Source of the DNA: Caldicellulosiruptor obsidiansis OB47
Lineage (GTDB): Bacteria; Bacillota; Thermoanaerobacteria; Caldicellulosiruptorales; Caldicellulosiruptoraceae
Length of the DNA: 64,000 nucleotides
Direction: 5' to 3'
Assembly (NCBI RefSeq): GCF_000145215.1
Contig: NC_014392.1
Location: 489,501 to 553,500, forward strand
Part shown: positions 5,616-19,700 of the stretch, one piece after another
Layout of the letters: every line of letters starts with the position of its first letter
How positions within the stretch are numbered: position 1 is the stretch's first letter
Notes under the pieces: model-generated
The model's database searches: none
Told to the model about the DNA's origin: nothing
Seen by the model: the letters and a program-made list of their open reading frames with translations, nothing else
Position numbers and translations under genes: made by a program

Positions 5616-8051
5616 TTATCCCATTATGACTTCTACAAAATGTTCTTTACCATCAGAAAAAGCAGGTATTAAATTGGAAGATATTTCATTACCATCAACA
5701 ATAACCTTTTTTACACCTTTTGAAACTTTGTTTGGATTTTTGACTTCAATATTGTATATTGCATTTCTGAAAACTCTTTTCACTTTAAATCCTTCCCATG
5801 ATGCTGGTATACAAGGGTCTATCAAAAGTCCATCAAAGTCTGGTCTTATCCCTAAAATCCACTGTGTCATTGCCACAAAATTCCATGCAGCAGAACCTGT
5901 TAACCATGAGTTTTTAGCCTCACCCGGCTTGTATGCATCTTTTCCTGCAATCATCTGACAGTATACATATGGTTCAATCTTGTGAATTTCGCTAATCTCT
6001 TCTCTGTATGAGGGTGCAATCTTTGACCAGTACTCAAATGCTCTGTCTCCTCTTCCCACAATACATTCTGCAATCATGATCCATGGGTTATTATGACAGA
6101 ACACAGCTGCGTTTTCTTTGTAACCTGGTGGATAGCTTGTAATTTCGCCAAGATGAATTTTGTACTCTGTAAAAGCTGGCTGAACTAAAACTATTCCATG
6201 TTCAGTATCAAGATATTTTTTTACAGAATCAAGGGCTGAAATAGCTTTGCCATCATCAAGTCCTATTTGGGCCATGACACAAAAACCTTGTGTTTCAATA
6301 AATATTTTTCCTTCATCGCACTCTTTGCTACCAACCTTGTTTCCAAAGTAATCATATGCTCTCAAAAACCATTCACCATCATAACCGTACTTTAGAATAG
6401 CTTCTTTCATTTTATCTATGTGGTTTTGAGCATCTTTGGCCAGTTCAAAATTTCCAGTCTTTTCACACAGCTTTACAAATTCTTTACCTACATACACGAA
6501 CATTCCCGCAATCATAACAGATTCGGCAGTTTTGCCATCTTTGTTATCACATGTTTGGAACGACTCATCAGGGTTTGTCGAGAAAGCATTTAGATTCAGA
6601 CAGTCATTCCAGTCAGCTCTGCCGATAAGAGGAAGTCCATGTGGTCCTAAGTTGTTGACAACATGATAAAAAGCCCTCTTTAAGTGTTCGAACATTGTAC
6701 CCATCTTTTCAGGATTATTTTCAAAGGGAACCATTTCATTGAGGATTGACCAGTCACCTGTCTCTTTTATATAGTGAACTGTTGAAAGTATCAACCAAAG
6801 AGGGTCATCATTGAAGTTTCCGCCGATTTCATTGTTTCCTCTTTTTGTAAGAGGTTGATATTGATGATATGCTCCGCCATCTTCAAGCTGGGTTGCAGCT
6901 AAATCCAGTATCCTTTCTCTTGCACGTTCTGGTATCTGATGAACAAAACCCAGAATGTCCTGGTTTGAGTCTCTAAATCCCATACCCCTTCCAATTCCAG
7001 ACTCGAAATATGAGGCACTTCTGGAGAGGTTAAATGTGACCATGCATTGATATTGATTCCATATATTCACCATTCTATCTACTTTGTCAATTCCTGTTGA
7101 TACATTGAACTTATCTAAAAGTCTATTCCAGAATTCTTTAAGTTTTTCAAATGCCGCATTTACATCTTCCGGCTTTGAAAATTTTTCAATCATTTTATAT
7201 GCCTTTTCTTTGTTGATAATACCTTTTTTGAACCATTTCTTATCAGGTTCATTCTCAATATAGCCAAGGATGAATATAAGTTCAGTTGTTTCTCCTGGCA
7301 GAAGACTGAGTTCGATCATGTGAGATGCAATTGGAGACCAGCCATGTGCTTCTGAATTAAAGCTCTTACCCGTTTCAACAGCAAGAGGGTTTTCAAATCC
7401 TCTGTAAAGTCCTAAAAATGTATCTCTATCTGTGTCAAAACCGGCAATAGGAGTATTCACAGAATAAAAAGAGTAATGATTTCTCCTTTCTCTGTATTCA
7501 GTTTTATGATATATAACAGAACCTTCGATTTCAACCTCGCCTGTTGAAAAGTTTCTCTGAAAATTTGTCATGTCATCAAGTGCGTTCCACAAGCAAAATT
7601 CTATAAATGAAAAGAGTTTAATATCTTTCTTATCATTTGTCATATTAGTAATTTTTAAATGATGTATTTCACAGTTTTCATCGACAGGGACAAAAAAACT
7701 TTGCTCAACCTCAATGCCATTTCTTCTACCTGTTATAATTGTGTATCCAAGTCCATGCCTGCATTGATAAAATTCGAGGTCTTTTCTTGTTGGCATCCAT
7801 GATGGTGACCAGAAATCATCCCCATCTTTTACGTAGAAGTATCTTCCCCCCATGTCAAGAGGAACATTGTTGTAACGAAATCTTGTTATTCTTCTAAGTC
7901 TTGCATCTTTATAAAAACAATAACCTCCTGCGTGGTTTGAAATTAAGGATAGAAAATCTTTCATACCAAGATAATTTATCCAAGGATATGGTGTAAGAGG
8001 AGTTGTTATAATGTATTCTCTTTTAGCATCATCGAAGTATCCAAACTTCAT
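5616..8051 (-). CDS. cellobiose phosphorylase, GH94
   Basis: 811 residues, the usual size for cellobiose phosphorylase. It is cytoplasmic and converts cellobiose plus phosphate to glucose 1-phosphate and glucose, saving ATP compared with hydrolysis. Visible marks are [13 protein letters not shown] at the start, [20 protein letters not shown], the catalytic Asp in [15 protein letters not shown], and [10 protein letters not shown] with [16 protein letters not shown] at the end. The start ATG 8051 has AAGGAG upstream. It is the first gene of the pair with the 790-residue GH94 protein. Together with BglA it gives the cell both a phosphorolytic and a hydrolytic route for imported cello-oligosaccharides. 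Confidence 0.92.
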
Positions 8052-8311
8052 TTTTCAAAAACTCCTTTCTACCCAGCACATATTTTTTGCTATTATAAAC
8101 CTAATCTTAATTATACCTTCTCTATAAAATTGGCTACTTTAATTATTTTGCTTTTATTTTGCATTATTTTGACATAAAAAGACTGTTATGTGTATTTGAT
8201 TTTAGATATTAATAATCAGAGTAAATTATGATATACTCAATATGGACATTTATTCTAAAAACGTTACAAAAAAAGCTTAAGAAATCTATTTTGCAGAAAG
8301 GGAGAAAAGAA

Positions 8312-9535
8312 TTGAAAAATGTTTGGATATTTAATCATTATGCAATTCCACCCAAAGTTGGGGGGATAACAAGACATTTTGATTTTGCTAAGCAGCTTGT
8401 GCAAAGGGGCTATAGCGTTACAATCTTTGCTTCGAGTTTTGACCATAAACAGCGAGTTGAGATGCTTGAAAAAGGTAAAAAGTTTAAAATGGAGAAATAT
8501 GATAAAGTAAGATTTGTTTGGATTAAAACATTTCCATACAAAAAGAATGATATAAAAAGACTTTTAAATATATTCTCATATGCCAAAAACCTTTATTTCA
8601 TTGCCAGAAAGTTTGAAAGACCTGATGTAATATTGGCATCTTCATTTCATCCACTTGCCTGGATTGTGGGGTATCTGCTGTCAAAGAAATTTAAATGTAA
8701 ATTTATTGCCGAAGTGAGGGACCTTTGGCCACAGAGCGGTATTGATCTTGGTGCTTTTAAAGAAGGAAGTTTAATTGTAAGACTTTTGAGAAAGCTTGAG
8801 AAGTTTATTTACACAAAAGCAGATTATGTTATGACGGTATTACCAAAAGCAGACCAGTACATAGAAAGTCTTGGCATTGATAAGAATAAAATAGTTCATA
8901 TTCCAAATGGGTGCGATATAGAAAGGTTTGATAGTCTCAGAAATTCTATCTCAGAAGAAGTAAGTAATATTTTGAGAGAACATGAGGGATATTTTAAAGC
9001 TTGTTATTTAGGTGCACTTGGTCAGGCAAACGCAATGGAAACAATAATTGAGGCTGCTAAGATTGTTCAAGAAAACGCAGGGGACAGTATACATTTTTTG
9101 ATAATAGGTGATGGTCCAGAAAAAGAAAAACTCCAAAATATGGCAAAAGAGTTTGAACTTAAGAATGTGTTTTTTTATCCGCCAATTGCAAAATTATCTG
9201 TACCTGCTTTGCTTGAACATGTTGATGTGACACTTGTTTCTATGCATAATTTGAAAGTCTATAGATTTGGAATATCTTTAAATAAGCTTTTTGATTATCT
9301 TTGTGCTGCAAAGCCAATTGTTTTTGCAGGAAATGTGGTCAACGATATTGTGAAAGAGTCTGGTGCCGGGATATCATGCCAGGCTTATGACAGCAAAGCT
9401 TTTGCACAGGCGATATTGCGCTTTTGTGCTATGTCAAAAGAAGAAAGAGAGGAAATAGGGAAAAGGGGAAGAGAGTATGTCCAAAAATACCATGACATTA
9501 GAATGCTTGCAACAAGACTTGAAAAAATACTTTAA
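8312..9535 (+). CDS. family 4-type glycosyltransferase
   Basis: 407 residues from TTG 8312 (GGAG 7 bases upstream); an ATG at 8228 would add a lysine-rich leader without a ribosome-binding site. The protein opens with VWIFNHYAIPPKVGGITRHF, the nucleotide-sugar glycosyltransferase start seen in WbuB-like enzymes. The C-terminal half has the GT-B donor-site region (IIGDGPEKEKLQNMAKE) and the Glu-containing stretch LNKLFDYLCAAKPIVFAG. It probably adds a sugar to a lipid-linked intermediate of an exopolysaccharide. The initiating sugar transferase follows 17 bases later, so the two form an operon. Confidence 0.85.
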   Translation: MKNVWIFNHYAIPPKVGGITRHFDFAKQLVQRGYSVTIFASSFDHKQRVEMLEKGKKFKMEKYDKVRFVWIKTFPYKKNDIKRLLNIFSYAKNLYFIARKFERPDVILASSFHPLAWIVGYLLSKKFKCKFIAEVRDLWPQSGIDLGAFKEGSLIVRLLRKLEKFIYTKADYVMTVLPKADQYIESLGIDKNKIVHIPNGCDIERFDSLRNSISEEVSNILREHEGYFKACYLGALGQANAMETIIEAAKIVQENAGDSIHFLIIGDGPEKEKLQNMAKEFELKNVFFYPPIAKLSVPALLEHVDVTLVSMHNLKVYRFGISLNKLFDYLCAAKPIVFAGNVVNDIVKESGAGISCQAYDSKAFAQAILRFCAMSKEEREEIGKRGREYVQKYHDIRMLATRLEKIL

Positions 9536-9552
9536 ATGGAGATGGTAGCAAG

Positions 9553-10899
9553 ATGAAATCATATATTAAAAGCTATCATAAACTGAGCAAATTTTTTGTT
9601 GTTCTTATTGATATTTTACTTATACATGCGGGTTATATTCTTGCATATATAATAAAGTTCAACTTTACATTCCCTGAAAGAAATTTTATGCCATATTATA
9701 CATTGATTCCTCAAATAACACTCTTTGCTCTTGTGCTTTTAAATATATATGGACTTTACACTATTACTATGAAAACAATCAGCGAAATTGCATTTTCTCT
9801 GGGTCTGGCTTTAATGCTTCTACAATTTTTAACAGTTGTATCAACATTTTTCTACAGACACTTTGCTTTCCCACGCAGTATATTTATAATTGCCTTTTTT
9901 GTCCAGTTTTTATTACTTCTGGGATGGAGAGGATTTGTTTTATATGTTTTCAAAAGAGTTCAAGGCATTAAATATGTTCTTGTGATAGGAGAGACATCGA
10001 GGGCACACGAGTTTGCTCAAAAACTTCAAAATATCTCAAAAGGATGGATAGAAGTAAAATATGTTCTTGAGCCAACAACTATTGAAGAGTTGATACCATA
10101 TATAAAAGTTGTTGATACAATTTATCTTTATTCAAAAATGGATGAGAATTTAAAAAGCGAGATTGTAAGGAAAGCGATAGAATTCAAAAAACACATTTTC
10201 ATAGCACCAGACTTCAGAGATATACTTGTATCACGTGCAAGGGTGATTCAGTTTGACGATGTTGCAACACTTTCGATTGAACAGCCAGAGCTGACATCCG
10301 AGCAAAAGCTCATAAAAAGGGTGTGCGACATTCTTCTTGCCTCTGTTGCACTGGTTATTGCTTTTCCTATAATGATTTTGATTGCAATTGCCATAAAACT
10401 TGACTCTGAAGGGCCGGTAATTTACAAGCAAAAAAGGGTTACAGAGGGTGAAAGAGAGTTTTATGTTTTAAAGTTCAGGACGATGGTAAAAGATGCTGAA
10501 AAGATGACAGGTCCTGTTTTAGCAACCGAAAATGACCCGCGAATCACACGTGTGGGGAGATTTCTACGTGCAACAAGGCTTGATGAGCTTCCGCAGCTGA
10601 TAAATATTTTAAAAGGTGAGATGAGCTTTATAGGTCCAAGACCAGAGCGACCATACTTTGTTGAGCAGTTTAAAAAGCTCTATCCTGAATATTCTCTGCG
10701 CCACAATGTAAAGGCAGGACTTACAGGACTTGCTCAGGTTTATGGCAAGTACGCAACAAGTCCTGAAGACAAGCTCAGGCTTGATTTGATATATATAAAA
10801 AATTATTCTGTTTTTTTGGACATCAAAATTTTACTGCTAACTTTAAAAACAATTTTTACTAAAGAGGCAGCTGAGGGGGTAAAAAACCAAAAAGGATAG
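9553..10899 (+). CDS. exopolysaccharide polyprenyl-phosphate sugar-phosphotransferase
   Basis: 448 residues. Four or five N-terminal membrane segments (to ~residue 135) are followed by a CoA-binding-like cytoplasmic domain. A further membrane hairpin comes at ~255-285 ([21 protein letters not shown]), and then the conserved bacterial sugar-transferase domain. That domain shows [28 protein letters not shown] and [13 protein letters not shown]. Such enzymes attach the first sugar-phosphate (often glucose-1-P or galactose-1-P) to undecaprenyl phosphate at the inner membrane. With the glycosyltransferase upstream it forms a two-gene polysaccharide start unit. The rest of a polysaccharide cluster is not seen here. 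Confidence 0.92.
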
Positions 10900-10973
10900 G
10901 GCTGCTTTTCTACTTGTAAGGGGCCCTGTGGTTATTTTCATGAAAGATTATTTCACTTAATGGTAATTATGCT

Positions 10974-11119
10974 TCAAAAGAGAATTATGGGTTTCTTTTC
11001 CCTGTGTTTAACTCTGCAGCTTTCACCTTTAATAACTACAAAATGACAGGGATGAACAAATCTATCTAAAATAACTGTGGCTAAAACTGGGTCATAAAAG
11101 AATATCTTCAGCTATTAGT
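10974..11119 (-). pseudogene. istB fragment (IS21-family helper ATPase, C-terminus)
   Basis: On the minus strand, a short frame ending at 10974 reads FYDPVLATVILDRFVHPCHF and continues VVIKGESCRVKHREKK. The pattern D-P-V-x-A-T-x-x-L-D-R-x-x-H and the G-E-S-x-R-x-K end are those of IstB, the AAA+ helper of IS21 transposases. Stops close the frame upstream of ~11119, and no istA could be recognised. It is a dead remnant of an IS21-type element at the left border of the accessory region. Confidence 0.65.
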
Positions 11120-12191
11120 AAAATACTTTATTTATGATTGTTATTGTTGCACTTTTCACATTATCTTGATAAGATTTACCTCATAGGGATCGTAGGAAAT
11201 CATATTGTACAAAATAGCAGTTACCTTTGTATGCAATATAACAATTGCTTTCTTATGAAACTTTAGAAGTATTTCTAAATGATTGCTCAAATTACTATCT
11301 CAGCGTACATAACTTTTAAAGTTTGCTATTGAAGTTCAATAACACTATATATCCGAACTTAACTTGAGCTTACTCGTAAAGCAAAGTTTTTTTGTTGTCT
11401 TTACATATCTTCCGACGTTTAAGCAACTTCTTCCAAAGTTATTGATATGTATTGTTGTCTTTAAAATTCCTTATATCTTTTCCGCAAGTAATTTATATTT
11501 TATAATATTTAGAAGAAAACTTCTAATTTAAATAATAGATAGAAATTTTAAATGTCATTTCAAATATGCTTAATTTGACAATAATGAAAAAATAAAATTA
11601 CTTAGTAGCTAATATTTTCAAGAATATTAAAATAATGTAATTTATAAAATGCAATTGTACATTGAGAAATCTGATAAAAAATGTTATTCCAAAATTTTGA
11701 CTATATCAGATTTGTGGAAACTTAACATTATACTTTTCCGTGCTTTATATTTGTTCTATAATAAATCTTAAGAAGCAACAGCAAAATATTTTAATGAAGA
11801 ATCTATCTTTTATAAAAATGACAAATAATGATACTTTATTATCTCTATAGCAGACCTGTTGATATATTAAGCTGAATAAATGAAGCAACGAAGAAAAGAA
11901 CTATATTAATTCGTGTACTATAATTGTCTGGTTTAGCTATATCAAATAAATCCAACTTCGCAGGGTTTTAGATACGCTCAAAATTTGGTCCGAAATTTGG
12001 TCTGGAGGCTATAAAAATTTGAATATTGAATATTATCTAAAATGATAATGGAGGAAAATCATGTAAAAAGAAGCAGAGGGAGGTCTGAATTAACAAACTC
12101 ACAATTACATAAATCAGTGTGAATTAAAAATTTGATCCAGCACGAAGTAAAAATTCCGAAGGAAATTATTTTAAATGAGGGGGATTAGAAA
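11120..12191. other. long stretch without a recognisable gene
   Basis: About 1.07 kb with stops in all frames and no protein similarity that I could recognise. It has two copies of TTGTTGTCTTTA (around 11390 and 11450) and a very AT-rich central part. It lies between the istB remnant and the HEPN gene and is most likely decayed mobile DNA. GGAGG-like purine stretches just before 12192 serve the next gene (GAGGGGGATTAGAAA before ATG 12192). Confidence 0.5.
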
Positions 12192-12911
12192 ATGAATTAC
12201 CGAATGATAGCAATTCAAGTAGGGGATCTTTTAAAATATGATACATCCAAAAATGATATAGAACGTGCAGCTAACTCTGTTTTTAATTTTCAACGAGAAG
12301 ATTTTCCAAAAGAAGCTATTACATCAGAGAGAGCAAAATTAATTCATGACTGGATACTTACATTAGCCAAACAGAAAATGAACAATGATGGACGCAATAG
12401 GTTATTAAGGAAATTTTTGTACCTTATTACTCCTGAAGATAAAGTAGCCGAGGTAGAGAAAATTTTAAGGGAAGCGGGTGTAAATTTGCATATAGACGAT
12501 GCTTTAAATGAATTCTATTCCAGAAATTATCATTATCTAATTTGTAAACATTGTCTCCAACTTTACAAACAGAAAAATTACTTTCACGCTGTGTTTGAAG
12601 CAGCAAAGGTTTATAACAAAATGGTTAAAGAGAAAACGCAAAGCGATAAAGATGGTTATGAATTAATGATGGATGTATGGGCCTTAAAGGGGGTTTTAAA
12701 GGTTACTCCTTGCGAAACAGACACTGATAAAAATGTTCAGGAAGGACTTAAGTTTTTGTCAGCAGGTTTAATGAGAGCTATTAGAAACCCAACAGCTCAT
12801 GAACCTGCACTTGATTGGCCTATATCAAAAGACGATTGCCTTGATCTTTTAAGTTTCATATCATTTTTGTTACGGCAACTGGATAAAGCAGTTTATTATA
12901 AAGGAAATTAA
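12192..12911 (+). CDS. TIGR02391 (Ymh-type) HEPN-like protein
   Basis: 239 residues, mostly helical, cytoplasmic. The C-terminal half matches the TIGR02391 family: HAVFEAAKVYNKMVKEKT, then FLSAGLMRAIRNPTAHEPALDW. The segment RNPTAH is an R-x4-H motif of the type that forms the RNase active site of HEPN domains, which are common in toxins and abortive-infection proteins. The first ~90 residues (RAANSVFNFQREDFP to YLITPEDK) form a separate helical part. The ribosome-binding site is GAGGGGGATT. The gene stands alone among decayed sequence and transposon remnants, with no antitoxin or restriction genes next to it. A defence role is therefore inferred only from motif and setting. Confidence 0.75.
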   Translation: MNYRMIAIQVGDLLKYDTSKNDIERAANSVFNFQREDFPKEAITSERAKLIHDWILTLAKQKMNNDGRNRLLRKFLYLITPEDKVAEVEKILREAGVNLHIDDALNEFYSRNYHYLICKHCLQLYKQKNYFHAVFEAAKVYNKMVKEKTQSDKDGYELMMDVWALKGVLKVTPCETDTDKNVQEGLKFLSAGLMRAIRNPTAHEPALDWPISKDDCLDLLSFISFLLRQLDKAVYYKGN

Positions 12912-13079
12912 AGTGTGAAAAAAATGAAACCAACCGAGTTCAACATTCTACTGTGTTTTGGTGCTAATGTACTCGGACAATAATTGTAAATTATCATGAT
13001 GCATTTTTATAGAAATTATATTGCTGTATTTAGTATTAAGAGGAAAGAAGATTGGTTATGCTGATACATCTTTGACAAA

Positions 13080-13480
13080 TCAAGTAAAAATTTGGTTCAG
13101 CTTATATTAAACAAAAGTGTTAATATTTATATTTTTTTTAGGTATTTAGCAATAAAACACATAATAGTCCTATCAACAGACGGAAATGTATACACTGGGA
13201 TAAACTGTTAATGAACTGTTTAGATTCTTATGAAAGAAGAAATGTTATTGCAATATCAAATTCCGAATGTAATATAGCAGAGCAAGAGATATAAAACATT
13301 ATGGGTTTAAAGATTTCAAAATTTTGGCAGTATTTGTGAGAGAGAAGGATTTTGGGAAAAGGTAAATGACTATATAGAAGAACTCTTAAATGTGTACCAA
13401 ACTGATAAAGAAGACATATTCGTTGAAAAGATAAGGAAGGCTGGGGAGAAAAAGGACTTGAGTTGATACCAAAAGCGGAA
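13080..13480 (+). pseudogene. decayed reading frame of unknown origin
   Basis: Protein-like stretches appear in changing frames, separated by stops and shifts. About 13145-13210 reads IIVLSTDGNVYTGINC. About 13200-13290 reads CLDSYERRNVIAISNSECN and onward. About 13294-13360 reads KHYGFKDFKILAVFVREKDF. About 13350-13465 reads EKVNDYIEELLNVYQTDKED. The order suggests one former gene of ~130 codons with at least three lesions. The family is not recognised; the D-G-x-V-Y-T-G stretch is only loosely like cytidine-deaminase-type proteins. Confidence 0.35.
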
Positions 13481-13704
13481 TAAACTTGTTAAAAATTTCA
13501 TTTTTAGATATAGTAACAAAATAAATTAGCTGCATAATTTGCAAATATTTAATTGTATTATTGAAGCAAGATTTTGCTCTTTTATCAACTAAAAATTCTT
13601 TTTCTACCTAAATCTTAATCCATTCTACTTTAAACCAATTGAAGATATTCTCTTTAAATTTTCCTTATGTTTTCATAAATTTGCTGTTAAAACTTTTAGA
13701 AGCA

Positions 13705-13716
13705 TTTGTAATATAT
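13705..13716. repeat. 12-bp target-site duplication of the first IS (left copy)
   Basis: TTTGTAATATAT at 13705-13716 recurs exactly at 14834-14845, directly outside the two ends of the insertion sequence. A 12-bp duplication fits the 10-13 bp range of the IS4 group and shows that this copy arrived by simple transposition. Confidence 0.8.
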
Positions 13717-13773
13717 TAGCTTGTTGAATAAAACAGATTAACAGAAAAGACAATAAATAGATATATATAAAAA

Positions 13774-13838
13774 GCCATCTTCCTTAAGGTAAAATTATAG
13801 CAAGAGAAGACTAAAAACACCTAACTAAGGAGGATGGC
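13774..13838 (+). promoter_or_regulatory. inverted repeat covering the transposase ribosome-binding site (copy 1)
   Basis: GCCATCTTCCTTA at 13774-13786 can pair with TAAGGAGGATGGC at 13826-13838, which contains the GGAGG of the transposase gene. RNA entering from outside the element would fold and hide the start. A transcript starting inside the repeat would lack the left arm and be translated. The second IS copy has the same arrangement with a different stem sequence. Confidence 0.65.
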
Positions 13839-13839
13839 A

Positions 13840-14787
13840 ATGACTAATTTTATTAAAACACAAAAACAAAAATTTTTAAAGATACTTATGACAATTGAGA
13901 AAGTAATAAAAGCCTTGGGATTAAAGATAAAAAGTAGCAGGAGAGGAAGACCGAAGAAATTTAAGCTAAGCCATATAATAGCTTGTTTTGTTTACAAAGT
14001 CAAAAAAAAGATAAACAGCTTCAGGGAATTAGAATACAAGATAAATGAAGATGAAGAATTTAAAAAGGCTATAGGGATAGAAAAGAGCCCCGATCATACA
14101 TATTTTTCGAAATGGGCAAAAGTAATTTAAGAAGAATATATAGAAGGAATAGCAAGAATTTTAGTGAGAGAAATAGATCTGCAGACAAAAGTTTGTGCTA
14201 TAGATTCTACACCTTTGAGAAGCTCGAGGGGTGACAAAGAGGCAGAAGTAGGAGTATGTGTTAGTTTAGGTTTTTACAATGGATATAAATTACATGTGTT
14301 AGCAACAGTTGAAGGCGAGGTTCTACCTATAGTATGGTGGTTGACACGTGCAAATATCCATGACAGTAAAATAGTAGAACTTTTGTATGAAGCTAAGATA
14401 TTTGGACCTGAAGTGATATTGGCAGATGCAGGTTATGATTGTGCGAAATGGTTTGAGGTGTCAGATAGACTTGGGATAAAGTTTGTAGCGGCGGTAAATA
14501 AGAGAAATAGTAAGGATTTCAGTAATGTAAAAAATATTTTGAGGATAAAAAATATGGAATTTTTAAGAAGTGAAGAAGGACAAAGGTTATATAAGCAAAG
14601 GACAAAAATAGAAAGATTATTTGGTAAGTTAAAAGGAGAATACAATTTAGAACAAGTAAGGTTAAGAGGTTTTAGAACATATAAGAGGCATGTAGACTGG
14701 ATTATGATTACTTATTTGATAGAGGTCTATATTCAAAAAATTGAAAACTGTAAATTTTCTTTTAAATACACGTGGAATAATTTGTAA
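13840..14787 (+). pseudogene. IS4-type DDE transposase, interrupted by one stop codon
   Basis: ATG 13840 has GGAGG 6 bases upstream. The frame stops at TAA 14128-14130 and then continues in the same frame (EEYIEGIARILVREIDLQTK) to 14787, so a single nonsense codon splits a ~315-residue protein. Catalytic parts are intact after the stop: first Asp in AIDSTPL, second Asp in LADAGYD, and the Y-x2-R-x3-E-x6-K signature in YKQRTKIERLFGKLK. The N-terminal part has the basic RRGRPKKF segment. Aligning with copy 2, the stop replaces a residue in the K-I-E-E-E-Y stretch. A GTG at 14164 could start the catalytic part alone, but it has no good ribosome-binding site. Confidence 0.85.
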
Positions 14788-14833
14788 TCCTATATAATAA
14801 CATTAATGGTATAATTATTTATTCAACAACTTG

Positions 14834-15184
14834 TTTGTAATATATATAAATAACAATCCTTCTAATCCCATTAAAGCAGAACATATATATGTCACAAAAT
14901 AATTTACAGTAAGATTAATTCCTTAATATTTTAATCCTATTCACGCAACCCATACACCTCAGGGTGCTGCTAATCTTTTTTGAAGATAATGAAGAACTTT
15001 TTGTCAAAAATAAGCAATCTACATAAAATAGTTCTACCAAATTAGATAGTGTACTATCCACTGCGTCGAGTTTTGTTTTTACTAATTTTTTATCCAACAT
15101 TTTTTATAGGCTTAAAAATTACTAAGTAGATGTATTTATCAGTTATTAGCAAATTCCTTCTTTTAACTCATCTACTTAATTGTT
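14834..15184. other. region without a supported gene
   Basis: It begins with the right copy of the target-site duplication (14834-14845) and is AT-rich. One 61-codon leftward frame at 14915-15100 has no recognisable features or ribosome-binding site, so I do not call it. No terminator stands out for the toxin gene that ends at 15185. Confidence 0.4.
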
Positions 15185-15517
15185 TTAGATTAACTCATAG
15201 AGTTTTTCTTTAACTCTCTCAATAATGTGTTTTTTCACTGAACCAAACTTATTTATTACAATACTTTGCGATAAAGTATAGATTTTGTCCACTCTTACAC
15301 AAGAGTCCACCTTAAGAGTCCCTTCAGCAAGGTCATGATTTGTCAACATAACAATATAATCTTTTGCTGTTAGGTTTGAAGTAATAGCTGCAACTAATAT
15401 ATCTTCTGTTCTGTTGTTGTAATCATCATTAGATAAAACAAGAACAGGACGTTTTTTATTCGATGTCAAATCACTGAAAGGTATGGGAATTAATAAAATA
15501 TCGCCTTGTCTATACAT
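15185..15517 (-). CDS. MazF/PemK-type endoribonuclease toxin
   Basis: 110 residues. I place the start at ATG 15517 (MYRQGDILLIPIPFSD), which overlaps the antitoxin stop by 8 bases. The conserved PemK/MazF core is present: QGDILLIPIPF at the start, then KRPVLVLSND, AAITSNL, and VDSCVRVDKIYTL. Such toxins cut mRNA when the labile antitoxin is degraded. The upstream partner on the same strand (15510-15707) completes a type II toxin-antitoxin pair. It lies in the accessory stretch beside ssrA, where such pairs commonly help keep mobile DNA. Confidence 0.88.
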   Translation of the reverse strand: MYRQGDILLIPIPFSDLTSNKKRPVLVLSNDDYNNRTEDILVAAITSNLTAKDYIVMLTNHDLAEGTLKVDSCVRVDKIYTLSQSIVINKFGSVKKHIIERVKEKLYELI

Positions 15518-15707
15518 TGTTCCATACCTCATCGTCAATATCATTATTCCAAAAATCTATACTACTCTCACTGGCGGACACCAAATCACTTAATAACTTT
15601 TTATCTTGCCTATGTTTTAAAAACAAAATAAAGTCAATAACTTCTTCAAGTTGACTTTCCGGGATTTCCTCAATTAGCTCTAATAAAAGATTTTTATTTA
15701 CTTTCAC
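15510..15707 (-). CDS. antitoxin partner of the PemK toxin (DUF2281-like)
   Basis: 65 residues from GTG 15707, with GAGG 9 bases upstream; another in-frame GTG at 15716 overlaps that site. Its first part, LLLELIEEIPESQLEEVIDFILFLKHR, is the amphipathic DUF2281-like segment found in small antitoxins. The acidic tail (SSIDFWNNDIDDEVWNNV) is the usual flexible toxin-wrapping end. It overlaps the toxin start, as expected for translational coupling. Neutralisation of the toxin is inferred from the pair arrangement. Confidence 0.75.
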   Translation of the reverse strand: MKVNKNLLLELIEEIPESQLEEVIDFILFLKHRQDKKLLSDLVSASESSIDFWNNDIDDEVWNNV

Positions 15708-15813
15708 TAATTTCACCTCTGAATTAATATACTATACCTCATTATTTTTCTAATGGGAGTTCTTCTTAGAAGTGTAGTCTAATAATCCCAAAACATTGTA
15801 GAATTGTTTATTT

Positions 15814-16179
15814 TGGTGGAGGCGGGGGGATTTGAACCCCCGTCCGAAGGCATCGAACCCCAAACTTCTCCGGGTGCAGTCAGTGTACTAAATTCTCGGG
15901 AAGAAAACGCCCACTGACAGGCTTTTTCTTCCCCAGCCTGAGATTAGTCCCAAAAGTAAGGCTCAGGCAACCTTACTTTCGGTACCCCACGTGGGTTGGC
16001 GCCCGACTCGGAGGCCGTGGGCACCTCCGGCGGACGTTAGCTGCTTATTTACGCAGCTAAAGCGAGTTGTGGTTTTTCTGCAGTTATTTTTCTTCTCGGT
16101 TTTTTATAGTGGCACCGAGAAAACCACTACCCGCTATTTGGAATCCGACTGCCCCCGTCGAATTCCAAAACACGCCCCC
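15814..16179 (-). ncRNA. ssrA: transfer-messenger RNA (tmRNA)
   Basis: On the minus strand the 5' end GGGGGCG pairs with CGCCTCC just before the encoded CCA at 15814, giving a 7-bp acceptor stem with one G-U. The T-arm region GGGGGTTCAAATCCCCCC is tRNA-like. The mRNA part reads GCA GAA AAA CCA CAA CTC GCT TTA GCT GCG TAA, a tag ending AEKPQLALAA. The terminal LALAA is the classic degradation signal for ClpXP-type proteases. The exact resume codon (GCA assumed) is inferred. tmRNA with SmpB rescues ribosomes stalled on broken mRNAs. Confidence 0.96.
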
Positions 16180-16656
16180 TCATCTTAAATACTCTTTCAT
16201 TTTCTTTTTAATCTCAAGCTCAGCATCTCTTTTTGCTATTGCTTCACGCTTATCATACAGTTTTTTACCTTTTGCAACTGCAAGCTCTACTTTTATTTTA
16301 CCTCTTTTGAGGTAAATCTTCAATGGGATTAAAGTGTAACCTTTTTGCTGTACATAACCTGCAAGCCTGTTGATTTCATGTTTGTGCAAAAGTAGTTTTC
16401 TATCTCTCATTGGGTCAACGTTAAAGATGTTGCCTTTTTCATATGGGCTTATATGCATGTTGTAAAGAAAAACTTCACCATCTTCTACTCTTGCAAAACT
16501 GTCTTTGAGGTTAACATGACCAAGCCGCACCGACTTTACTTCTGTGCCTTTTAGCTCAATTCCTGCTTCGATTGTCTCTTCAATAAAATAGTCGTGATAA
16601 GCTTTGCGGTTTGTTGCTATGACTTTTATGTCATTCTGTTTATTCTTTTCAGACAT
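16180..16656 (-). CDS. smpB: SsrA-binding protein SmpB
   Basis: 158 residues from ATG 16656 with GGAG 8 bases upstream; the longer in-frame start at 16683 has no such site. It binds tmRNA and brings it to stalled ribosomes. Family segments seen are [27 protein letters not shown] near the start, then [36 protein letters not shown], and the basic C-terminal tail ([27 protein letters not shown]). Its TGA stop ends exactly one base before the mature 5' end of tmRNA, so both come from one transcript driven by the promoter at 16707-16735. Confidence 0.97.
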
Positions 16657-16706
16657 CTGATCAACTCCTGCAATTGATTCCAAACAATTATTCTTTGCAA
16701 ACTTTT

Positions 16707-16735
16707 ATTATATAATAGAAACAAATTTTTGTCAA
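16707..16735 (-). promoter_or_regulatory. sigma-A promoter of smpB-ssrA
   Basis: On the minus strand, a perfect TTGACA (-35, 16730-16735), 17 bases of spacing, and a perfect TATAAT (-10, 16707-16712) lie ~50 bases before the smpB start. It is the best consensus promoter in the window, as expected for an abundant stable RNA. Confidence 0.88.
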
Positions 16736-16769
16736 TCCCCAATATGCATTACATTTGTTCTACATCTCA

Positions 16770-19700
16770 TCATTCCAAAAGCTCCATTATTTCTTCTTTT
16801 GTGAGTTTTCCTATAAAAGATTGACTTGCTTCGATTAAACTATCAAATAAGTCTTTCTTTTTCTGCTGTAGAGCAAGTATTTTCTCTTCTATAGAATTTT
16901 TGGCTATAATCTTAAATGACTGAACAACATTTTTCTGACCCAGCCTGTGTGATCTTGCTGTTGCCTGGTTTTCAACTGCAGGGTTCCACCATGCATCAAA
17001 GTGAATAACAACGTCTGCGCCAGTAATATTGAGTCCAAATCCACCAGCTTTTAGCGAAAGCAAAAAGACATTTTTCTCTCCACTGTTGAACCTGTTGACC
17101 ATTTCAACTCTGTCTTCAGCTTTTGTTGCACCATCTAAATAAAAGTATAAAATTTTTTCCTTGTCAAGCATTTTCTTGATAATAGATAACATTGAAGTCC
17201 ACTGAGAATATATAATTACCCTGTGCCCGCTTTCTAAACAGTCTTGTAAAATTTCTTTCAGTGCTTCCATCTTACCAGAGCTTCCTTTGTAATCTTCAAA
17301 TACAAGCTTTGGATGACAGCAGATTTGTCTTAGTCTTGTCAGCAAAGAAAATATTTTTATTTGACTTTTTTCAAACCCAGCTGAATCTATTTCTTTTTCA
17401 ATCTCTTTTTTGGCTGAGACTAAAAATTGCTTGTAAATTTTTTCCTGTTCAGGGCTCATTGCAACTTGGATATTTGTTTCTATTAGCTCAGGAAGTTCAT
17501 TTAATACATCTTGTTTTACTCTTCTTAAAACAAACGGTTTTATCAACTTTTTTAATTTTTCCAAAGCATTATTGTTTCCGCTATAAATTAGCATTGCAAA
17601 ACGCTCAACAAATTTCTCAGCTCCTCCTAAATATCCAGGAAGTATAAAATCAAAGATTGACCACAGTTCAATGAGATTATTTTCAATTGGTGTACCTGTC
17701 AGGGCAAATTTAGCATCTGCACAGATTTCTTTTACAGCCAGCTTTATTTGTGAATGAGGATTTTTTATGTACTGTGCTTCATCTAAGATACAAACACTAA
17801 AATCGATGTCTTTATAAAATTCTATATCTTTTCTCAAAAGTGCATATGATGTAATTACAATATCATACTCTGGTATTTTTTCTATAGCTTTTTTGCGCTT
17901 TGCAGGTGTTGAGTCAATAATTAAAGTTTTCAGACCTGGCGCAAATTTTTCAATCTCTTGTTTCCAGTTATAAATAAGTGATGTTGGTACAATGGCTAAT
18001 ACTGGCTTTTTAATTTTTTGTTTATTTGCAAGAATAAAGCCAAGTACCTGCAGAGTTTTTCCAAGCCCCATATCATCAGCTAAAATTCCACCAAGTTCAT
18101 TTTCAAATAGAGAAGATAACCATTTTATTCCAAGTTTCTGATAATCTCTTAACACACCTTGAAGCTCAACTGGGATTTCAATATCAATTTCCCTAATATT
18201 TTCTATCTTTTCAACAATATTTTTTATACTTTCAACTCCATTTGCCTGAATTCCGCTTTCTTCTAAAAGTTTTGTTACAGCCACTGCTTCTTGTAAAGAA
18301 AGCTCAGCTTTTTCTTTTATAACCTGGCCAATGTCGGATGCAGATTCTATAAATGAAACAAATCTTTTTATATTTGGACTTTCTAAAATCAAAATTGAGC
18401 CATCTTTGAGTTTGTAATACTTTTTCTTTTTCTTGATTGCATCAAGAATATTTTTAAGCTCTGAGCTATCAAGATCATCACTTTCAAGCCAGAAGTCAAT
18501 TGAGTGTTTTGAATATTTTAAGCAGGGAATAATTTTTACATCTTTCTTTATTTTAAGCTTCTTAAAATCTTCTGAATAATAAACATCGGTTATATTTTGG
18601 ATTTGTGGAATACCTTCTGCTAAAAATTCCATAAACAAATCAGGGTCAACACATTCATAACAGAATTCTTGGTCAGACTCTATCTCATTAAACCTATAAG
18701 CAAATAAAATACTTTGTATCTCAAACAAACCAAAATAATCAAACAATGGAACTTTCTTTGTTTTTGATATTATATCAAATATTTCATTCATTCCACTGAT
18801 TCTTGCGACAAACCTTTCATTTTCAAATTCTAAGTATAGTTTGGGTTTAATAATATAATCTTCTAATATTAATTTTTTGAGGTCTGGGTCAATTTCTAAT
18901 TCAAAGTGCTCATTTAAAAATAAATAATATTTGTTCATGAACTCACAAAAGTCTTCTTTATTGAGGGTAAAAAAATTAACGTATTCAACTTTGAAAAAGT
19001 TAAATACTCTATTTGCTTCAGCCATTTTTTTGATAATTGAAGAAAATATCTTTTGCTCTGGCGAAAGCTTATATAAAGTGTCACCTGAGACAAAATAACT
19101 ACCATCGCTATATAAAAATTTTTTGTTGGCAGTGTCTATTAAATCACTATAAAGTTTTACCTGATTATCTTCAAGTTTAAATAAAATCTTTGGTTTTACT
19201 TTAGTGCAAAGATCAACTTTTACTTTTTGAGCATCATAATAATTTGCCACAAAATAATCAAAAGATATAAAAATTTCTTCATTGTCAAGGATTTCGATTA
19301 TTTCATTTGCTATCTTTACAGGTAGGTAAATAGTATTTTTTTCTGTTTCTAAATCTAAAAAATTCAAATATTTCAATAGCGCATTCAAAAATTTTTTGTC
19401 TTTTTCACCAAAAAAATGATAAGTAGGATTGTACACAAAATTCTTACCAAACTGAAATGGTTGTTTTTGTTCGTATGCTTTTAAAAATTCTGGTATATTT
19501 GAAACCACATAGTCTCTTTTTAAATCTAAAGTTTTTACTTTTAATTTTAAAGTTACTAAATCATTAGTAGAATATCCGAAGTATTTTTCTAAAAATATGT
19601 TAGGAGACTTTATAGATAAATTATCAAGTGAAAACTTTATATAATTTTCTTCAAAATTGCTTGCAAAAAATTGATAAATCCGGGAATTTTGTTTTCTTTC

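Follow-up and report, generated by a model that had tools for sequence, protein, structure and literature searches.

What is the product of a gene that stands open and alone amid decayed mobile DNA, and why has its frame survived there? The question is raised by the forward-strand gene at 12192-12911 of a 64,000-nucleotide stretch of the Caldicellulosiruptor obsidiansis OB47 genome (hereafter, the window), which encodes a 239-aa protein of the Ymh/TIGR02391 family of HEPN proteins, with an ATG start and no internal stop. Its GC content is 33%, against 27% on either side. A Shine-Dalgarno-like GAGGGGG, noticed by eye, is present at 12177-12183 (+ strand) and ends 8 bases 5′ of the ATG. Between 11900 and the gene start, the + strand showed no sigma-70-like site, which was counted against the reading as a defence RNase proposed below.

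A solitary gene at a variable site near ssrA

The sequence-only reading had described a solitary intact gene between an istB remnant and an insertion sequence (IS), and this picture holds: the gene is the sole ORF of at least 60 aa in 10900-13833, and both neighbours are decayed. The left one, on the - strand at 10998-11156, was detected by tblastn with an intact istB-like ORF from the genus as reference (E 1.5e-16, 66% identity over 53 aligned positions) and is interrupted by two stops and one gap; a shorter istA-like piece comes next (E 0.005). Bases 10999-11146 are repeated at many sites in the genus, one copy lying inside an intact istB-like ORF that adjoins an istA-like ORF. The right neighbour is a + strand transposase frame (13834-14787) cut by one in-frame stop. 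Its matches in NCBIfam, to IS982, IS1182 and IS5, were below cut-offs, and the upstream end of this IS (13710-13830) is multicopy in the genus. The names istA and istB, as well as smpB and glycosyltransferase used below, are presumptive, being read off the sequences. A search around the gene for repeats that would mark a transposon gave only short, chance-like pairs.

Region 8000-17000 was compared with its equivalent in 11 further genomes of the genus. The 239-aa protein was missing from all 11, and is thus present in one genome out of 12. The site that harbours it (10910-15816) lies between a glycosyltransferase-like gene and the 3′ end of ssrA, the tmRNA gene (15814-16179, - strand; Rfam RF00023, 192.3 bits), and was found empty in 8 of the 11 genomes and filled with other DNA in 3. 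The putative smpB (16180-16683) is in all 12 genomes. Where the site is empty (G001, G002, G003, G004, G005, G007, G009 and G011), the flanks are 21 to 206 bases apart, the glycosyltransferase side extending to ∼10908-10935 and the ssrA side starting from ∼15505-15518 (from 15802 in G002); in G001, a 115-base piece matching 15006-15122 lies between them. The filled sites hold ∼8.6 kb in G010, ∼11 kb in G008 and ∼0.9 kb in G006. G010 and G001 both contain parts of 14968-15122, so that the DNA specific to this genome, delimited by blastn of the relatives' loci and matched by nothing at this site in the other 11, was set approximately to 10936-14967. Searched genome-wide, 10900-13830 matched nothing in the relatives except multicopy pieces and, weakly, an 82-base segment. 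The latter is 13343-13424 (72%, E 5.7e-4), matched in G006 outside the IS pieces.

We considered that the site might be a dedicated defence hotspot, and did not uphold this idea: the cargo in the three relatives gave no clear defence match, a result also counted against the defence RNase reading. In G008 it consists of metabolic-looking and IS ORFs, as judged by eye, and in G010 of a DUF3800 fragment and a weak UDG-like match, as judged by a Pfam scan only. The G006 cargo (L086:1144-2001) is a single 285-aa ORF matchless in Pfam, PADLOC and NCBIfam. The window itself has a PemK/MazF toxin gene at 15185-15544 (PF02452, 8e-19), overlapping a 68-aa antitoxin-like ORF, the pair spanning 15185-15716. 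This gene may be older at the site and have been lost elsewhere: in several relatives DNA is kept on the side of the small ORF (from ∼15505-15518) and is mostly gone on that of the toxin, a pattern that would result if the toxin gene went and the small ORF remained.

The HEPN domain and its R-x4-H motif

Residues 112-230 (12525-12881, + strand) match the Pfam profile PF09509, Hypoth_Ymh, with an E-value of 2.1e-32 and 111.9 bits (cut-off 25), and the 239-aa protein matches NCBIfam TIGR02391 with an E-value of 2.5e-26 and 92.2 bits (cut-off 39.45). Judged by these profile E-values, membership of the Ymh family is far beyond chance. With PADLOC, the PD-Lambda-3_B profile matched residues 83-234 (E 3.4e-25, profile positions 112-264 of 270) and Aga_HEPN matched the protein with an E-value of 5.7e-9; in PHROGs, phrog_6297, of unknown function, matched at 8.9e-14. 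A PDB sequence search with the protein returned nothing but ORF48, whose E-value of 0.15 was treated as chance.

According to the available text of PMC3710099, HEPN domains with an Rx4-6H motif are predicted metal-independent RNases, and Ymh is among them, with the motif conserved. In the window protein the corresponding motif, predicted to be the RNase active site, is RNPTAH (residues 198-203; 12783-12800, + strand), which has the Rx4-6H spacing and a polar residue after the R. That RNPTAH is the HEPN signature had been claimed from the letters, and two results bear the claim out: the domain scores over curated cut-offs, and R-N-x3-H is present in 32 of 34 loci (33 with a HEPN match, plus the window), which are search matches rather than a random draw, some of them near-copies (e.g. 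L042, L088, L089). A loss of R and H, which would have told against the sequence-only reading, was not what we saw in the inspected loci, mostly best matches. The two exceptions are L011, with K for R, and L013, a 97-aa fragment with Y for H. Among the 35 loci examined for this count, a HEPN domain was found in 33, 31 of which have R-N-x3-H; L003 is without the motif region and L033 gave no HEPN match. A 27-row alignment (A2) had left out L011, L013, L022, L024, L030, L032 and L033, restored in the later count; 26 of its rows cover the motif, and R198, N199 and H203 are present in all 26.

In the AlphaFold2 model m106fa862d6fe, a helix spans 177-197 and is followed by another at 200-203, which puts the motif at the end of a long helix and the start of a loop within a helical bundle, the place expected of a HEPN motif; residues 204-207 have low confidence. 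The HEPN rows of the fold search were weak, with Csm6′ (8pe3) at Z 5.0, rmsd 5.2 and 107 aligned residues, and Csx1 (8y7f) at Z 4.5, rmsd 8.9 and 174 aligned, and were counted against the RNase reading.

Ymh proteins were already linked to defence in 2012-2013 (PMC3506569 and PMC3710099, in their available parts), the former reporting an association of Ymh with restriction-modification and the latter listing Ymh HEPN solos as well as fusions to pMORC, AbiJ-NTD1 and AbiTii. In a literature search whose scope left outside most subscription papers and bioRxiv, no paper devoted to a Ymh HEPN protein was found by family name, nor any mention of TIGR02391.

An N-terminal helical domain of a rare type

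The HEPN domain and its defence link being already known, the novel part is the N-terminal ∼100 residues, which are of a rare type. The first ∼90 had been read as a second helical domain, and the AlphaFold2 model agrees, with five helices within residues 3-94 (3-13, 20-30, 46-60, 65-78 and 82-94). The domain (residues 1-102; 12192-12497, + strand) was found in four loci, the window, L004, L005 and L003. Up to an E-value of 10, Pfam gave for these four N-termini weak matches only, none significant. One of them, in a single member, the window protein, is to DED (E 0.071, 13.8 bits, cut-off 35.9). The usual Ymh N-terminus, of ∼140 residues, and that of the window type show no detectable sequence similarity (15 usual-type and 3 window-type proteins compared). 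A kinship suspected by eye was dismissed at the sequence level, the listed hmmsearch scores being -1.4 to 2.2 bits and the hhalign probability 0.2 on the tool's own scale; the two may still share a fold.

At E ≤ 10, the profile of the domain had one match in each of the four carrier genomes and no second copy, a search in which too-divergent copies would be missed. When profile A4 of the domain was run on 398 genomes of the phylum, 24 matched at E ≤ 0.1, strongly in three cases, the window genome, G098 and G192. The next two matches (E 0.0012 and 0.004), the weakest to be inspected, fall in housekeeping-looking ORFs, which we take to encode an M16-type peptidase and a YggS-like protein; they were regarded as chance, and modular reuse of the domain was not retained. 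Plasmids had no match to the N-terminal part alone at E 0.01, and no relative was found in viral contigs with P0001, A1 or A4. Phage records gave no match at 1e-5 and nine at E ≤ 1, of which seven match the HEPN region; the two others, ‘capsid and scaffold protein’ matches to residues 19-119 (E 0.3), were taken as chance.

The mean pLDDT of the full-length AlphaFold2 model is 86.9, the other four models being at 70-76. Foldseek of this model against the PDB returned nothing at E ≤ 0.001, and a viral fold library no match at the same threshold. Aligned with VIA-align, residues 1-97 gave pyrin 2mpc (Z 5.3, rmsd 3.2, 77 aligned), then the NLRP3 PYD and Dronc CARD (both Z 4.7), the NLRP6 PYD (4.6) and the caspase-8/cFLIP DED (4.5), these death-fold rows (PYD, CARD, DED, DD) being mixed with spidroin and adenylosuccinate lyase rows of similar score. 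A model of the isolated domain, built from 4 sequences and with a pLDDT of 66.1, gave HEAT/armadillo-like rows instead, the C-terminal part of Abi-P2 (7r08) on top (Z 6.2, rmsd 3.6, 98 aligned), and no death-fold row among the 50 listed; the death-fold reading was not upheld by this second model. All Z values of the domain lie within the range that the tool calls common for helical bundles, and as moreover the two models disagree, a death fold stays hypothetical.

Were the domain a pyrin/DED-like assembly domain fused to the HEPN RNase, as the full-length model might suggest, the gene would be a one-gene ‘inflammasome’; we consider this doubtful. Equally doubtful is the sequence of events that would follow from it, in which an infection signal would cause the N-terminal domain to polymerise, bringing the HEPN domains together for RNA cleavage. 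The protein would share with the bacterial death-like and effector-associated domains (PMC8195603, available part) a small helical N-terminal adaptor on an effector, and a weak fold likeness in one model; it differs from them in that the likeness is missing in the second model and that no second copy was found in the genome. If true, the death fold would make this gene a minimal and mobile form of the adaptor-effector scheme known from animals, and a polymer-forming domain of that kind would tie a bacterial RNase effector to inflammasome logic.

Relatives, alternatives and a proposed function

Close relatives of the protein are few and scattered. L004 (in G098) is 65% identical to it and L005 (in G192) 60%; L003, from a Desulfofervidaceae MAG, is 70% identical over residues 1-124 and misses the HEPN part. 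In this MAG (L003:10001-10465), the gene is cut just past the N-terminal domain, directly before what is presumably a glyQ-like gene, and the N-terminal frame is open. L022 (in G518), which shares 63% identity with L004, is an 87-residue C-terminal remnant with a stop. Since two of these five close loci are degraded, the truncated L003 and the remnant L022, the gene appears to be often lost, which was counted against the defence RNase reading. Eleven of the 398 phylum genomes match the protein in any form at E ≤ 0.001. The other sets, between which some genomes are shared, gave 1 match in 3 genomes (class of G098), 5 in 154 (class of G192) and 9 in 247 (phylum of G403, including the doubtful partial L033), and a contig scan across genomes added 1 relative.

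At the DNA level, the window and L003 are similar from the start codon onward (76% over 372 columns), no significant similarity being found upstream of it. Over 122 codons, this pair has a dS of 0.99 and a dN of 0.185, which indicates purifying selection on the N-terminal part since the two split; the estimate concerns this one pair, the other pairs being saturated at synonymous sites. The proposal that survival of the frame implies selection is thereby supported for the N-terminal part. Survival in this genome taken by itself is weak evidence, since a gene present in 1 of 12 genomes may be of any age there. In a simulation, this frame survived without a stop with a chance of 0.0185 at 0.1 substitutions per site and 0.0015 at 0.2, but as its residence time in the genome may be short or long, we put no weight on these values.

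As to neighbours, L004 is followed 43 bases downstream by a gene for a TcmP protein (TIGR04474, E 1e-61; PADLOC PDC-M41A, 1.2e-116), then by one for a DUF5131 protein (PF07505, 1.3e-100; PDC-M41B, 2e-115), and preceded by an ORF matching part of DarG below cut-off and a Uma2 gene. A functional link of the TcmP and DUF5131 genes, a candidate defence pair (L014:5341-7026), with the adjoining Ymh HEPN gene of G098 is possible. L005 is alone among transposase-looking ORFs. Two of the three intact window-type loci, the window and L005, thus have no defence gene evident nearby, only IS, a further point counted against the defence RNase reading.

More distant Ymh proteins are mostly ∼265-270 aa long. 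On plasmids, 115 records match the 239-aa protein, none over 80% of its length. Nine loci were drawn from the best 30 of these matches, eight of them annotated (L037 is without annotation), and in 5 of the 8 PADLOC named a defence gene within 7 kb, the other three being unscanned: GajA/GajB (Gabija) in L034, an AbiD/PD-T4-5-like gene in L035, PDC-M68B in L036, SduA (Shedu) with Dsr1 in L039, and HamA with HamB (Hachiman) in L042. For the unscanned three, annotation gives a DNA methyltransferase and an antitoxin-domain gene in L038, mazF with an AbrB/MazE-type gene and a PIN-family toxin in L040, and a RES-family gene in L041. As a control, a 14.4-kb stretch was taken elsewhere in seven of the same plasmids (L034 had none). 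Product names of defence or toxin-antitoxin type, judged by eye, were present in 6 of the 7 home stretches (7 with RES) versus 0 of the 7 controls, which were compared by name and not by PADLOC, one of them being mostly hypothetical proteins.

In E. coli, 44 of 5426 genomes match the Serratia plasmid gene at the DNA level, in 43 cases along 80% or more of its length. Two such loci, L088 and L089, have PD-Lambda-3_A (2.3e-100 and 1.4e-102) directly before the PD-Lambda-3_B gene, and on these profile matches the longer Ymh form of E. coli is subunit B of PD-Lambda-3. One locus lies beside Qat (L089), the other beside a restriction-endonuclease fragment. In strain KFu022 (L089:2286-12798), PD-Lambda-3_A/B are flanked by a HEPN/Toprim-associated gene on one side and by the Qat genes on the other. 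In Streptococcus phage IPP34 and Lactococcus phage TP712, the relative is near integrase and CI-type genes, that is, in lysogeny modules. Surveying neighbourhoods for defence islands, as the sequence-only reading had advised, hence placed many of the inspected relatives in mobile, defence-island or prophage settings; these loci, mostly best matches and non-random, were not mainly in the housekeeping settings that would have spoken against a role in defence.

We think it rather probable that the gene encodes a stand-alone, infection-triggered Ymh HEPN RNase with a rare helical control domain. The C-terminal ∼125 residues would be the RNase, family knowledge placing R198 and H203 in its active site, and the N-terminal ∼100-residue helical domain would hold it silent. 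A phage-related signal would lead the HEPN domains to pair and cut RNA; growth arrest or death of the infected cell would follow, by analogy with Tha and PD-Lambda-3, and phage would not spread. The single gene would move between distant lineages, and here have landed in the variable site near ssrA. An RNase effector of the abortive type, controlled by a domain of its own, is suggested because of its likeness to what is described in the available parts of PMC3710099, PMC3506569, PMC11087260 and PMC13190303.

A close parallel, by description only, is Tha, an anti-phage system of S. aureus prophages (PMC11087260, in part). Tha-1, a single HEPN protein, degrades RNA non-specifically once phage tail proteins have activated it, and protection is abolished by the H270A mutation; like the window protein, it joins an N-terminal part of unknown fold, predicted with low confidence, to a C-terminal Rx4H HEPN domain (RNSIMH). 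With AbiJ-type proteins the architecture is shared as well, several types of variable N-terminal domain preceding HEPN in Abi-like proteins (PMC3710099, available part). The usual-type N-terminus of phage TP712 weakly matches AbiJ_NTD3 (2.7e-4, 20.8 bits, cut-off 32.5), whereas no AbiJ_NTD match is listed up to E 10 for the N-termini of the window, L004, L005 or L003, with a tool whose filters drop most weak matches. As for the Ymh family (PF09509, TIGR02391) at large, the window protein has in common with it a HEPN domain with R-N-x3-H in mobile, often defence-linked settings, and departs from it by an N-terminus unlike the usual one and without significant Pfam match.

PD-Lambda-3 acts by abortive infection, infected cells lysing but blocking a second round (PMC13190303, available part). 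It is placed under the PD-(D/E)XK nuclease domain in the available part of PMC10952713, and its description was not found in that of PMC9519451. The window protein is not a full-length B subunit: its HEPN half aligns to positions 112-264 of 270, and it is one gene with another N-terminus, compared with A plus B in E. coli. PD-Lambda-3_A (PDLC03986) had no match in the window genome at E ≤ 1, which was counted against the defence RNase reading, and one weak match with two stops in G098 (E 0.028). These data raise the possibility, in our view unlikely, of an orphan: the effector component of a system of several genes (resembling PD-Lambda-3, or tied to TcmP/DUF5131), its partner lost on transfer and itself inactive or decaying. 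The two-gene form of E. coli, the missing A subunit, the decayed flanks and the apparent operon of the G098 relative with TcmP and DUF5131 all fit such an orphan, but the PDC-M41 pair may be adjacent without any functional tie, L005 is likewise alone yet intact, and two phage members have no partner as far as annotation goes, their neighbours being unscanned. Moreover, as the N-terminus differs from the usual Ymh one, the same PD-Lambda-3 partner is not expected.

A constitutive or stress-linked toxin, favouring persistence of the mobile stretch rather than phage defence, appears improbable. No adjoining ORF of at least 60 aa (shorter ones were outside the scan) is available as antitoxin candidate, and several relatives adjoin anti-phage systems, although the gene is solo among IS and shares its variable site with a PemK/MazF-type toxin gene. 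That the protein serves in housekeeping RNA processing or regulation is hardly credible, since nothing specific favours it beyond the presence of HEPN also in RNA-processing proteins (PMC3710099, in part), while the settings are mobile, matches are rare in the phylum, and the genus-wide position or presence expected of such a gene is not seen (1 of 12 genomes, site empty in 8 of 11).

The gene is of interest beyond this genome: Ymh HEPN proteins occur in many bacteria, on plasmids and in some phages, and a compact member encoded by one gene, its N-terminal domain small and separate, would be handy for asking how such RNases are restrained and triggered.
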